Source of the DNA: Eubacterium sp.
GTDB lineage: Bacteria > Bacillota > Clostridia > Lachnospirales > Lachnospiraceae
Length of the DNA: 36,349 nucleotides
Assembly (NCBI GenBank): GCA_016280325.1
Contig: JAEEGM010000092.1
Coordinates: 1-36,349, forward strand
Direction: 5' to 3'
How positions within the stretch are numbered: position 1 is the stretch's first letter; the number at the start of each line of letters is the position of its first letter. The translations under genes were made by a program, and so were the position numbers. Under the pieces are notes generated by a model. It was not told where the DNA came from. It saw only the letters and a list, made by a program, of their open reading frames with translations, and did not search any database. Of the stretch, positions 18,052 through 21,895 are shown piece by piece.

Positions 18052-18080
18052 ACTATATCATACGAACAGATGTTTGTCAA
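18052..18080 (-). promoter_or_regulatory. Promoter of the LysM gene
   Basis: On the minus strand TTGACA (18075-18080) and TATAGT (18052-18057) have a 17-nt spacer. A LexA-type box fills much of the spacer, so a bound repressor would block polymerase directly. Confidence 0.85.
18063..18076. promoter_or_regulatory. LexA-type operator 2
   Basis: CGAACAGATGTTTG is a full match to the Firmicutes LexA pattern CGAAC-N4-GTTYG. Its centre is 30 bp from operator 1, and it lies between the -35 and -10 boxes. Confidence 0.85.
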
Positions 18081-18089
18081 TACAAAAAT

Positions 18090-18103
18090 CGAACAAATTT
18101 TCG
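18090..18103. promoter_or_regulatory. Weak third LexA-like site on the amidase side
   Basis: CGAACAAATTTTCG keeps the outer bases of the LexA pattern but has T for the inner G. It lies 27 bp from operator 2, toward the divergent amidase gene, and could extend control to that gene. Confidence 0.4.
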
Positions 18104-18214
18104 ATTACATATCAGAATAGACGTTTTTTCGTATTTTTTATTATTAATGACATGATTCTGTCAAGAGGGGTGGTTATGATTACATTGTTAATAAACTATG
18201 GAGAGGGGTATCGT

Positions 18215-20062
18215 ATGTTACACGATTATAGGGGATTCGGATTCGGATTTGTTCGTCATATGTTCAAAGGCTTCTGTGTGGTTATTTTTCTTATATTGTT
18301 TGGTGTCTTGTTTTCTTTTCATCAAAAAGAGGCGTTGGCGGCCGGCAGTTCTCCGCTGACGCTAACCTACAGCGATAAAGTTCATACGTATAAAGGTGTG
18401 CAGGGAAAATTGAATCTGATGCACAAGGATTACGAATTCACAACCATGCCCATCGTTAAACTTGATGGTGTACTATACGCGCCGGCGCAGGAGTTGTTTC
18501 AGAAAATTCTGGGCTGCAGCTGGGATTATAATACCGAAACAACGGAGTATCATGTATACGATGACGATCTGGATGTGATGATACAGTTTAAGGCAGGAGA
18601 GAAGTCTTTTACACTGATTAGTGGCGGGAATGTGACGGCTGTTTCTCTGTCAAAGCCTATCCTTATGATTCAGAACGGCACCTCCGAGGTGATGCCCTGT
18701 ATCCCGATTACAAAGGTGCTGAAAACCCTAAAATTTACTACTTCATGGAGCAAGAAAAAAGCGACCTATTCGGCACTTCGATCGAAATTTTTTGATTGGA
18801 TCGGTACGACTGAGGATACGGATACAAGCGTAAATCATGTCAGCCATGCAACCGGTACCTATAGCTTCAGTGATAATATGGCATATATCGATCTGAAGTT
18901 TTACGGAGACCGTCAGGAATCCTTTGATGCGGTCTATGTTGACCGTAATGACAAGATCATCACGGTAACGCTTCCGGACTCCACATTTTTACCGGAATTA
19001 AAAATGTACGATCGCTTTGGTGAGATCGCGGAGCGTATGGTCGTGACAGAAGAGGAGAAAAAGGTAACCGTTTTGTTCTATTGCGAAGATACAACAGAGT
19101 TTACCTATACAACTGCCGATAAGCGGCTGCATCTGCGTCTGATGTGGGATTACAGCAACAAGACCGGTAAGATCACCAATTACTCCCTGACCTTTGACAG
19201 GCCGGGGCCGGAGTATCTGATTGACAAGGTTTCCCAGGAAGAATGCTATGATTCCGTTTCATATAATAAAGCATTTAAGCTGATCGTCAAGGGGGATCAT
19301 CTGAAGTTTTACAAAAAACATCCGGTTGTCATCAATAATAATGCCGTAAAACGGATCAAGGTATATCTGTCGGATAATGAAAATACCGTCATCAAAGTGA
19401 CCACGAAAAAACTGCAAGGGTACAAGGTGTCAAGGATTGGAAATAAGTACGTGGTCAAGATGGATAATCCCAAGAAGATCTATAAAAATATCCTGGTATT
19501 TGATTGCGGACACGGAGCCCATGACAGTGGTGCCGTGAATTATGGGGTAAGAGAGAAGAATCTTAATCTCAAGATCGGGTATAAATTACTGAGTAAGTAT
19601 TTCAACCAGCTGAATCCGGACATCAAGGTATACTGGACAAGAAAGACAGATAAATTTGTCACACTGGATGATCGATCGAAGTTCGCTGAGAAGGTGTGCG
19701 CCGATGCTTTTATCAGTTTGCATATGAATTCGGCAGCGAATACGAAGGCAAACGGCACGGAGGTCTATTACTCCGTAAATAATAATAAGAAAAAGTCATC
19801 CGGTCTCATGAGCCAAAAGATGGCCCAAATGATGGATTCCGCGTTGGTATCCGCCTTGAAAACGAATGACAGAGGTGTCAGAACAGCCGGATTTTACGTA
19901 ATCAAGAGAAATACGGTACCGGCAATCCTGATCGAGCTGGCATTTTTGAGCGGGAATGAGGATCACAAGCGAATGATAACCTCATCCTTCCAGAAAAAAG
20001 CAGCGAACACGATTCAGACCGTGATCAAGAATATCTTTAAGAAATATCCATCGAAAAGATAA
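18215..20062 (+). CDS. Secreted N-acetylmuramoyl-L-alanine amidase (Amidase_3)
   Basis: With ATG 18215 (GAGAGGGG 6 nt upstream) the product has 615 residues and a signal peptide ending near QKEALAA. The track's start at 18074 would put 47 extra residues before it. The first third looks like a copper-amine-oxidase-type stalk domain (APAQELFQKILGCSWDYN). The middle is strand-rich and AMIN-like. The C-terminal domain is a zinc amidase: FDCGHGAHDSG (H433), VREKN (E447), SLHMNS (H503) and catalytic E574 in LIELAFLSG. It cuts the bond between MurNAc and the stem peptide. It diverges from the LexA-controlled LysM gene and converges on the recombinase gene. Confidence 0.93.
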   Translation: MLHDYRGFGFGFVRHMFKGFCVVIFLILFGVLFSFHQKEALAAGSSPLTLTYSDKVHTYKGVQGKLNLMHKDYEFTTMPIVKLDGVLYAPAQELFQKILGCSWDYNTETTEYHVYDDDLDVMIQFKAGEKSFTLISGGNVTAVSLSKPILMIQNGTSEVMPCIPITKVLKTLKFTTSWSKKKATYSALRSKFFDWIGTTEDTDTSVNHVSHATGTYSFSDNMAYIDLKFYGDRQESFDAVYVDRNDKIITVTLPDSTFLPELKMYDRFGEIAERMVVTEEEKKVTVLFYCEDTTEFTYTTADKRLHLRLMWDYSNKTGKITNYSLTFDRPGPEYLIDKVSQEECYDSVSYNKAFKLIVKGDHLKFYKKHPVVINNNAVKRIKVYLSDNENTVIKVTTKKLQGYKVSRIGNKYVVKMDNPKKIYKNILVFDCGHGAHDSGAVNYGVREKNLNLKIGYKLLSKYFNQLNPDIKVYWTRKTDKFVTLDDRSKFAEKVCADAFISLHMNSAANTKANGTEVYYSVNNNKKKSSGLMSQKMAQMMDSALVSALKTNDRGVRTAGFYVIKRNTVPAILIELAFLSGNEDHKRMITSSFQKKAANTIQTVIKNIFKKYPSKR

Positions 20063-20093
20063 TCGATTATCTTGAAGATTAATCATCTTTTCG
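20052..20093. terminator. Possible shared terminator between amidase and recombinase genes
   Basis: CGAAAAGAT (20052-20060) pairs with ATCTTTTCG (20085-20093), with a 24-nt loop that itself holds the palindrome AATCGATT. The arms lie in the last codons of the two convergent genes. The stem is A/T-rich and there is no clear T-run. Confidence 0.35.
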
Positions 20094-21149
20094 TAGAGTA
20101 ACCGCGGAGGCGGCACGACGTTTGCGATCCTCATCGAGAGCAGCGTAGTGCCGTCTTGTTGTATTGACGTCATTGTGCCCGAGAACCTCGGCGACCAGGT
20201 AAATATCTCCGGTTTCCCGATACAAACTGGTGCCGTAGGTGGAACGAAGTTTATGCGGCGTGATATGCTTGACTGTTGTCACATGGGAAGCGGCATCTTT
20301 GACCAGATCCTCAATCGCCTGCACGGTAATCCTTCGTTTTTGGATTGACAGGAAAAATGCGTGTTCGTGGCCGGCCTTGGTTTCAATATGACGGCGTTCC
20401 TCATAATACGTATACATGGCCTCGCTGACTTCGTCGCCGAAATACACAAAGTCCTCCTTGCCGCCTTTTCGAATGATTTTGATCCGATTGTTCTTGAAAT
20501 CAATATCCTCCAGATCAAGTCCGACACACTCGGAAACACGAATTCCCGTACCGAGCAGAAGAGTGAAGAGGGCAAGATTACGCACCTTATTCTTCTCAAA
20601 ATACGTTCGCTTCATCCCTTTCATCGTTTCGCCGCCGTGTTCCACATAATCCAGAAGATTAGCAACCTCGTCATAATCCAGCCGCGTGATTTCCTGTTTG
20701 TGAAGCTTCGGCATATCCACGATCACGGTTGGATTCTTATTGATCATCTCATGTTTATAATAATAATTGAAAAAGCTTCTCAGCGAGGCTAATTTGCGTT
20801 TTATGCCACGTTCGTTGTTCGTATGGGTAACACCGGCCTCGTCTTCATAAAGCTTCAAATACTCCATATATTCCTCGATATCAAGAGCGTCTAACTTCTC
20901 CAGATCCGTCAACGAGATTGATCGTATATCATCCTTATTTTTAAACGAGGGATTGGCTTGACATAAAAACGAAAAGAACAAACGGATGTCATATACATAA
21001 GATATTCTGGTCTTGGCTGAGGTTTTCGGTTCCATGGCACGAAAATAATCCCTGCAAAATCCGGGAAGAGTTTCCAATACCTCCCTAAGTTTTCTTGTGT
21101 TGTCACGAGATGTTTGTTCATGGTATGTGATTTTCTTGTCCGATGCCAT
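20079..21149 (-). CDS. xerC: Tyrosine recombinase, XerC/XerD type
   Basis: The 356-residue protein has an N-terminal SAM-like core-binding domain (about 25-150, with YVYDIRLFFSFL) and a catalytic domain carrying R204 (GTGIRVSE), H299 and R302 (PHKLRSTYG), H325 (GHND) and nucleophile Y335 (RRHYAAL). Xer proteins resolve chromosome dimers at dif. The start is ATG 21149: GGGAGG lies between it and the earlier ATG used by the track. With about 350 residues it is longer than XerC (about 300), with extra charged residues at both ends. No phage genes or att sites lie nearby, so a housekeeping role is likelier than integration, but XerC versus XerD is not certain. Confidence 0.88.
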   Translation of the reverse strand: MASDKKITYHEQTSRDNTRKLREVLETLPGFCRDYFRAMEPKTSAKTRISYVYDIRLFFSFLCQANPSFKNKDDIRSISLTDLEKLDALDIEEYMEYLKLYEDEAGVTHTNNERGIKRKLASLRSFFNYYYKHEMINKNPTVIVDMPKLHKQEITRLDYDEVANLLDYVEHGGETMKGMKRTYFEKNKVRNLALFTLLLGTGIRVSECVGLDLEDIDFKNNRIKIIRKGGKEDFVYFGDEVSEAMYTYYEERRHIETKAGHEHAFFLSIQKRRITVQAIEDLVKDAASHVTTVKHITPHKLRSTYGTSLYRETGDIYLVAEVLGHNDVNTTRRHYAALDEDRKRRAASAVTLRKDD

Positions 21150-21211
21150 AAGAAGAGTACCTCCCATATGAAAAATAAGCTGACAGAACAACTTGTGTAG
21201 TTGCTGTACTC

Positions 21212-21240
21212 ATTATACCATATAGAGAAGAGACTGTCAA
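21212..21240 (-). promoter_or_regulatory. Consensus promoter of the recombinase gene
   Basis: On the minus strand TTGACA (21235-21240) and TATAAT (21212-21217) are both perfect, with a 17-nt spacer. The -10 box ends about 60 nt before the start codon. Confidence 0.9.
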
Positions 21241-21257
21241 CTCTCTTGGACAAACTC

Positions 21258-21354
21258 CAGTTTTTCAAAAAGAGGTATATAGAAATGCAGAACGATTTGT
21301 TTCTGCATTTCCATATACCTCTATATTTCCATATACCTCTATTTTGAAAAACTG
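21258..21354. repeat. Long inverted repeat with an internal 18-bp duplication
   Basis: The 315-nt gap 21150-21464 has no gene. Its centre is an inverted repeat: the left arm 21258-21290 (33 nt) matches the complement of the right arm 21303-21354, except that the right arm holds a perfect tandem duplication of ATTTCCATATACCTCTAT (21307-21324 and 21325-21342). The loop is 12 nt. It lies between the terminator of blaI and the -35 box of the recombinase promoter, so it is probably not transcribed from either. Confidence 0.9.
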
Positions 21355-21400
21355 CCGTATTTATATCCTGATACCTGTAAACATCCAGTAACTCTCTCAC

Positions 21401-21464: not shown

Positions 21465-21845
21465 TTACATCTTTTGGTTATGATTGATCATGCGTTGCAG
21501 TTCGATGATTTCTTCCGTAGTCAGCTTGCGCTGGCCAAGGTAATCCTGGATAAACACATTGAGCGATCCGTTAAACATTTTTGAGAACAACGCCTCGGTC
21601 TCAATACGCTGAACTTCTTTTTTTGTGATCTGAGCCCTGCAATTAAATCCGGGGTCCTCACGTGACACGGCACCTTTGTCAATCAGGCGTTTGATCACGG
21701 TATAGGTCGTATTCTTTTCCCAACCGATATACTCTTTGATGATCTTGGCAATATCTTTAGCAGCAAGTACACTGTTGGACCATAAAAGCTCCATAACATT
21801 TAGCTCGCCTTCATGTAACCGAATTTCATCTTTTTTGTTCGCCAT
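21465..21845 (-). CDS. BlaI/MecI/CopY family repressor, orphan
   Basis: The 126-residue protein starts MANKKDEIRLHEGELNVMELLW and has the family's winged helix with the recognition part TTYTVIKRLIDKGAVSRED. The C-terminal dimer helices end YLGQRKLTTEEIIELQRMI. BlaI and MecI repress beta-lactam resistance genes until cleaved by a BlaR1-type membrane protease. No blaR1, beta-lactamase or copper exporter gene lies beside it. The track's upstream start is replaced by ATG 21845, which has AAAGGGG about 10 nt before it. Its own promoter carries two TACATCTGTA dyads, so autorepression is expected. Other targets must be elsewhere. Confidence 0.88.
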   Translation of the reverse strand: MANKKDEIRLHEGELNVMELLWSNSVLAAKDIAKIIKEYIGWEKNTTYTVIKRLIDKGAVSREDPGFNCRAQITKKEVQRIETEALFSKMFNGSLNVFIQDYLGQRKLTTEEIIELQRMINHNQKM

Positions 21846-21895
21846 ACACCATATACCCCTTTGATACAATCTCTACAAAAGTAGATGCAATGTTC

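Follow-up and report, generated by a model that had tools for sequence, protein, structure and literature searches.

A candidate dif site beside a XerS-like recombinase gene in a Lachnospiraceae genus, flipped and joined to a hairpin in one species

Published work describes single-recombinase Xer systems in streptococci and lactococci, epsilon-proteobacteria, Legionellales and archaea, and among the features that such systems share are a recombinase gene beside its site, a position near the shift in GC skew, low G+C and imperfect arms (PMC5357621, PMC2731167, PMC3025954). Both difSL and difH adjoin their single recombinase genes near a skew shift, XerS being 356 amino acids long (PMC5357621, PMC2731167), and the difH consensus reads TGAAAAC---A-TTTTCAAA (PMC2731167). 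A related precedent is the phage CTXphi, which carries a pair of inverted dif-like sites, ~90 bp from each other, that form a hairpin; once integrated, the phage leaves a single functional dif alongside dif-like sequences that do not work (PMC3089051). The locus described here lies in a 36,349-nucleotide stretch of Eubacterium sp. DNA (contig JAEEGM010000092.1, positions 1 to 36,349, hereafter called the window). The kind of system that we propose for it (that is, single-recombinase Xer/dif) is already known; what sets it apart is the lineage, Lachnospiraceae (one of the main gut families), for which we found no description of such a system in the open literature searched, and a site that is unusual in being flipped and partly duplicated.

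A sequence-only reading of the window had drawn attention to an inverted repeat at 21258–21354, proposing among other roles that it binds a recombinase or regulator. When the surrounding 121-bp region was used as a query in relatives, its left edge was matched (~29 bp, 86–100% identical) and the hairpin was not, and this match adjoins the same recombinase gene in most genomes of the genus. The conserved unit lies on the forward strand at 21239–21274 (AACTCTCTTGGACAAACTCCAGTTTTTCAAAAAGAG, core 21243–21274) and comprises an L arm, a ~6-bp centre (CTCCAG/CTGGAG) and an R arm; because it begins 19 bases outside the reported repeat, that repeat holds only half of it, its left arm being the inner half of a complete 32–36-bp dif-type site. 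In an alignment of 35 sites, mean column identity was 91% within the block versus 42–47% in the flanks, and the window block is identical to the genus consensus. The site stands beside the recombinase gene in 34 loci with unrelated flanks, mostly within ~140 bp of the gene start (range ~45 to ~540 bp). Among 84,980 species, each represented by one genome, it was recovered in 29 stretches, whose records all bear titles such as Lachnospiraceae, Eubacterium, Roseburia or Clostridia. A dif site is expected to be ~28–31 bp long, intergenic and single copy with imperfect inverted arms, and the 32–36-bp block answers to this description, occurring once per stretch. The idea of a recombinase binding site is well supported for the left arm, as a putative dif-type target (21239–21274) of the adjacent recombinase. 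Four genomes of the same genus (G004, G012, G020 and G026, each at least 92% complete) have neither a close orthologue of the recombinase gene nor a match to the site, and may use another dimer-resolution system.

The recombinase gene (xer, 20079–21149, minus strand) encodes a tyrosine recombinase of 356 amino acids (PF00589, E = 4.7e-35), counted from an ATG at 21149 that is preceded by GGGAGG; the open frame reaches a TTG at 21191 (370 amino acids). Its best NCBIfam model is XerS, and because it scores 207.5 bits, below the cut-off of 267 (a Streptococcus salivarius plasmid XerS reaches 435.6 bits on the same model), we call it XerS-like rather than XerS. A Pfam search found no other PF00589 protein in the genome, although a second Xer could be missing from the data because the assembly is a draft of 164 contigs that is 90% complete. 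A sigma-70-like promoter for xer can be read at 21212–21240 on the minus strand (TTGACA at 21235–21240, a 17-bp spacer and TATAAT at 21212–21217), its -35 element sharing bases with the outer edge of the dif palindrome; many relatives likewise have a TTG- or TTGACA-like -35 directly adjoining dif. With dif in contact with the xer promoter, bound Xer would probably also tune expression of its own gene. In two relatives (L011 of G009 and L012 of G022), the predicted promoter lies beyond dif, which would place dif in the xer leader. The next gene upstream encodes a BlaI/MecI/CopY-type repressor (21465–21869, minus strand; PF03965, E = 2.1e-20) and is a conserved neighbour in most relatives; an N-acetylmuramoyl-L-alanine amidase gene (18074–20062, plus strand; PF01520) converges on xer at the skew switch, the usual order being amidase > < xer [dif] < blaI < rluD.

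The position of the site is that expected of a replication terminus. The window's GC skew switches sign at ~20 kb, where genes converge, and the cumulative skew maximum falls at 20393, with dif at 21258; the corresponding pairs (maximum/dif) are 121541/124363 in G036, 131099/129776 in G027, 97989/96565 in G011, 108023/111891 in G028 and 6005/9382 in G014 (skew taken from the first 80 kb of that contig only), so that the maximum lies 0.9–3.9 kb from the site in all six contigs. A classical arrangement of XerC and XerD with their dif was not what we found: there is one PF00589 protein in this 90%-complete genome, and matches to a classical dif within the window do not rise above the shuffled level. 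The genome encodes FtsK-gamma. Judging by anatomy, we have high confidence that 21239–21274 is a dif site. Given the conserved site beside xer, its position at the skew maximum, the sole PF00589 protein and FtsK-gamma, the locus is very probably a chromosome-dimer-resolution module of this Lachnospiraceae genus that works like XerS/difSL or XerH/difH. By analogy with XerS and XerH, Xer copies would bind the two imperfect arms, and FtsK would draw sister dif sites together at division, leading to Xer strand exchange in the centre of the site and resolution of dimers. The site would then mark the terminus of these genomes and offer a target for integrative elements.

Compared with XerS/difSL of streptococci and lactococci, the locus has the same single recombinase of 356 amino acids with dif immediately beside its gene, a position near the terminus, two imperfect arms and a GAAAA-type half-site (PMC5357621). 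It differs in the sub-threshold XerS score, the Lachnospiraceae host, an apparently distinct site sequence (difSL being represented by the half-site sequences in PMC5357621) and, in the window species, a flipped dif with a hairpin attached. No difSL was recognised by eye upstream of plasmid XerS genes. XerH/difH of Helicobacter and Campylobacter resembles it in its single recombinase, with dif linked to the gene in most species, and perhaps in a site of the TGAAAAC...TTTTCAAA type (PMC2731167). Against difH of five species, the shuffle p value was ~0.01 for three, H. pylori and C. jejuni among them, and not significant for two; this similarity is weak and local, hinting at kinship of the two sites. 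The proteins are only weakly similar (32 bits against the sequence of the XerH structure), the phylum is different, and a flipped half-site is not mentioned for XerH/difH in the cited literature. In Legionellales, too, dif was recognised from its place at the terminus, its palindromic form and the presence of one recombinase, but there dif and xerL are more than 400 kb apart, whereas here they are adjacent (PMC9765430).

Among the 34 loci, only that of the window joins the site to this hairpin. A repeat search of the window recovered the arms, in pieces, at 21258–21291 and 21301–21354, each 33–35 nt long but for a perfect 18-bp tandem duplication confined to the distal arm (unit ATTTCCATATACCTCTAT, copies at 21307–21324 and 21325–21342, perfect on sequence check); the arms otherwise differ by mismatches and a 1-nt indel. 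The structure (21258–21354, no strand assigned) consists of half-dif arms, ~22 bp of further stem and an 8-nt loop at ~21293–21300. Unaltered, 21240–21370 folds at -28.4 kcal/mol, against -6.1 ± 2.1 in dinucleotide shuffles (z = -10.7; 0 of 200 shuffles folded as well), and without one of the 18-bp copies the 79 nt that remain fold along their entire length at -29.6 kcal/mol, leaving few arm bases unpaired. The inverted repeat with a lengthened arm, its near-perfect match once one copy is dropped and its place between the xer promoter and the blaI terminator were thus all recovered as the sequence-only reading had described them, and its suggestion of slippage is reasonable given that the duplication is perfect. 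A cruciform, which that reading had also entertained, is a prediction from folding. Absence of conservation, which it had named as grounds for dismissal, holds for the hairpin itself, present in no relative, yet not for the dif half. We best see the hairpin as a scar rather than as an element with a demonstrated function.

Relative to xer, dif has the same orientation in 33 of the 34 loci and is flipped in the window only. Because the gene order of the window is the usual one, only dif itself has turned, and because the site has the same sequence at its two outer ends (AACTCT...AGAGTT(G)), the TTGACA -35 of xer survives the flip. The flipped dif is followed by ~22 bp of extra stem, then the loop, then the other stem arm, which holds the duplication, and finally an R half-site that keeps the ancestral orientation. 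This leftover half-dif, identified by sequence comparison (21337–21354, minus strand, CAGTTTTTCAAAATAGAG), comprises the R arm and half the centre; it stops mid-centre at 21354, and the L arm beyond is unrecognisable. Such a layout would result from an inverted duplication after which the old L arm was lost, and we read it as the scar of a local rearrangement at dif that appears specific to this species, given its absence from the 33 relatives. The ancestral dif, pointing with xer, may have given rise to an inverted copy, the simplest route being template switching at this quasi-palindromic site; the intact new copy would have taken over as the working site, the old copy would have been reduced to its R half at the far end of the hairpin, and 18 bp would later have been doubled by slippage. 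That the flipped copy is the working dif we consider quite likely, and we hold the overall explanation (that is, a working dif at 21239–21274 with a hairpin and duplication arising from a species-specific rearrangement) with similar assurance. Template switching with inverted duplication as the origin of the flip is more tentative, somewhat short of an even chance, as it accounts neither for the source of the stem sequence GTATATAGAAATGCAGAA nor for loss of the old L arm exactly at the site centre. Two other ideas were rejected: an invertible promoter, since the segment that would invert is nearly palindromic and would read almost the same either way, and a flip of dif through simple Xer inversion between two inverted sites, which leaves the same arm facing xer. 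A naturally flipped dif would allow a test of whether orientation relative to the chromosome matters.

The conserved site could alternatively be a regulatory operator for xer, bound by Xer or the BlaI-type repressor and not a recombination site, given that it abuts the xer promoter and that a BlaI-type gene lies next door. An operator that depends on one promoter geometry is, however, not expected to tolerate a distance to the gene of ~45 to ~540 bp, a position before the promoter in most relatives and after the predicted promoter in G009 and G022, and an inverted copy in the window; together with the location of the site at the skew switch in six contigs and the failure to find a second Xer in the genome or any rival candidate for dif, this makes an operator very improbable. 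The flip, for its part, is seen in one assembly only and palindromes are prone to such errors, so that a fold-back chimera or a short-read misjoin around the palindrome has to be weighed; the differences between the arms are nonetheless unlike a simple fold-back copy and the flanking xer promoter and blaI terminator are correctly ordered, and we regard an artefact as improbable. Hardly credible is a dispersed palindrome of the MITE or REP kind inserted at xer by chance. The nearest relatives do carry dispersed long palindromic repeats, with 33–39 matches in each of the genomes G011 and G002, and a copy lies between dif and xer in G011 (G011:C7:96639–96809; L160, L185), but the outer arms of the hairpin are dif sequence, and the search for further arm copies that the sequence-only reading had proposed found a single copy in the 2.14-Mb genome, which refutes a multi-copy family there. 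Searches of the genus, phage, plasmid and species collections gave short AT-rich chance matches only, with no exact match to the hairpin core in 84,980 species. The proposed remnant of a small mobile repeat is accordingly unsupported as a MITE, because the repeat is single copy, and has a low but real probability as a phage-related remnant. Two large hairpins occur at another locus (L067).

Within the preferred reading of a rearrangement at a working dif, origin by a phage or other integrative element is unlikely. A filamentous phage might have integrated in the manner of CTXphi (folded single-stranded DNA, host Xer) and later disappeared; a functional dif would then remain next to a decayed inverted dif-like sequence and part of a hairpin. 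In favour of this, the break in the old site falls precisely at its centre, CTXphi provides the precedent for inverted pairs and leftover sites (PMC3089051), and the sole full-length match in a 32-mer search of phage records was Dulem virus 66 (PP511394.1, L153), an inovirus recovered from lemur faeces. This virus carries two inverted dif-like sites resembling the window dif (1668–1699 and 1751–1785, 83 bp start to start) that fold as one structure (1668–1785), much as the CTXphi attP(+) pair does, with a pair score of 46.9, whereas none of 300 Markov-resampled sequences exceeds 39.0 and none of 12 related inoviruses exceeds 37.6. None of those 12 other gut inoviruses has a pair matching this genus, and IMG/VR yielded no exact dif pattern (two looser matches, L169 and L170, have a poor second arm) and no confirmed relatives of the Dulem virus 66 Zot. 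The window resembles the CTXphi outcome in pairing a dif with a degenerate inverted dif-like sequence, but CTXphi uses XerCD and a classical dif, whereas here the second inverted site is a half-site (21337–21354), and the window holds neither phage genes nor phage-matching sequence. Against such a footprint also stand a hairpin that matches no phage in the collections searched, L arms that face the loop in Dulem virus 66 where R arms do so in the window, and the fact that integration alone does not flip dif; we consider it doubtful overall. Slightly more doubtful still is the wider conjecture that, in Gram-positive gut bacteria, filamentous phages insert into the dif of a single XerS-like recombinase as folded single-stranded DNA, as CTXphi does with XerCD, the flip and half-site hairpin of the window being the footprint of one such event. 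With the inovirus match, integration in the style of CTXphi could be put to the test outside proteobacteria.

Among 39 genomes of the genus, one (G021) has a related Zot gene (74% identical, partial), 4.4 kb from dif on the same contig (C71; L155, 1–10973), along with tspB-like and Arc-like repressor genes of inovirus type. This favours the footprint reading, but integration at dif in G021 is only suggested because a small gene intervenes, the locus is rearranged and the contig ends inside Zot; the Dulem virus 66 replication protein was not found there, so the other prophage boundary is unreadable. The xer–dif block of G021 is inverted relative to blaI and rluD (rluD > blaI > < xer [dif]). A gene for a small putative membrane protein lies between dif and blaI at L086 1340–1612, L156 8626–8772 and L155 6288–6584; it may be a host gene, because it occupies the same place in G015 and G031 without phage genes, a phage leftover being the alternative. 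In G021 it overlaps the Arc-like repressor gene.
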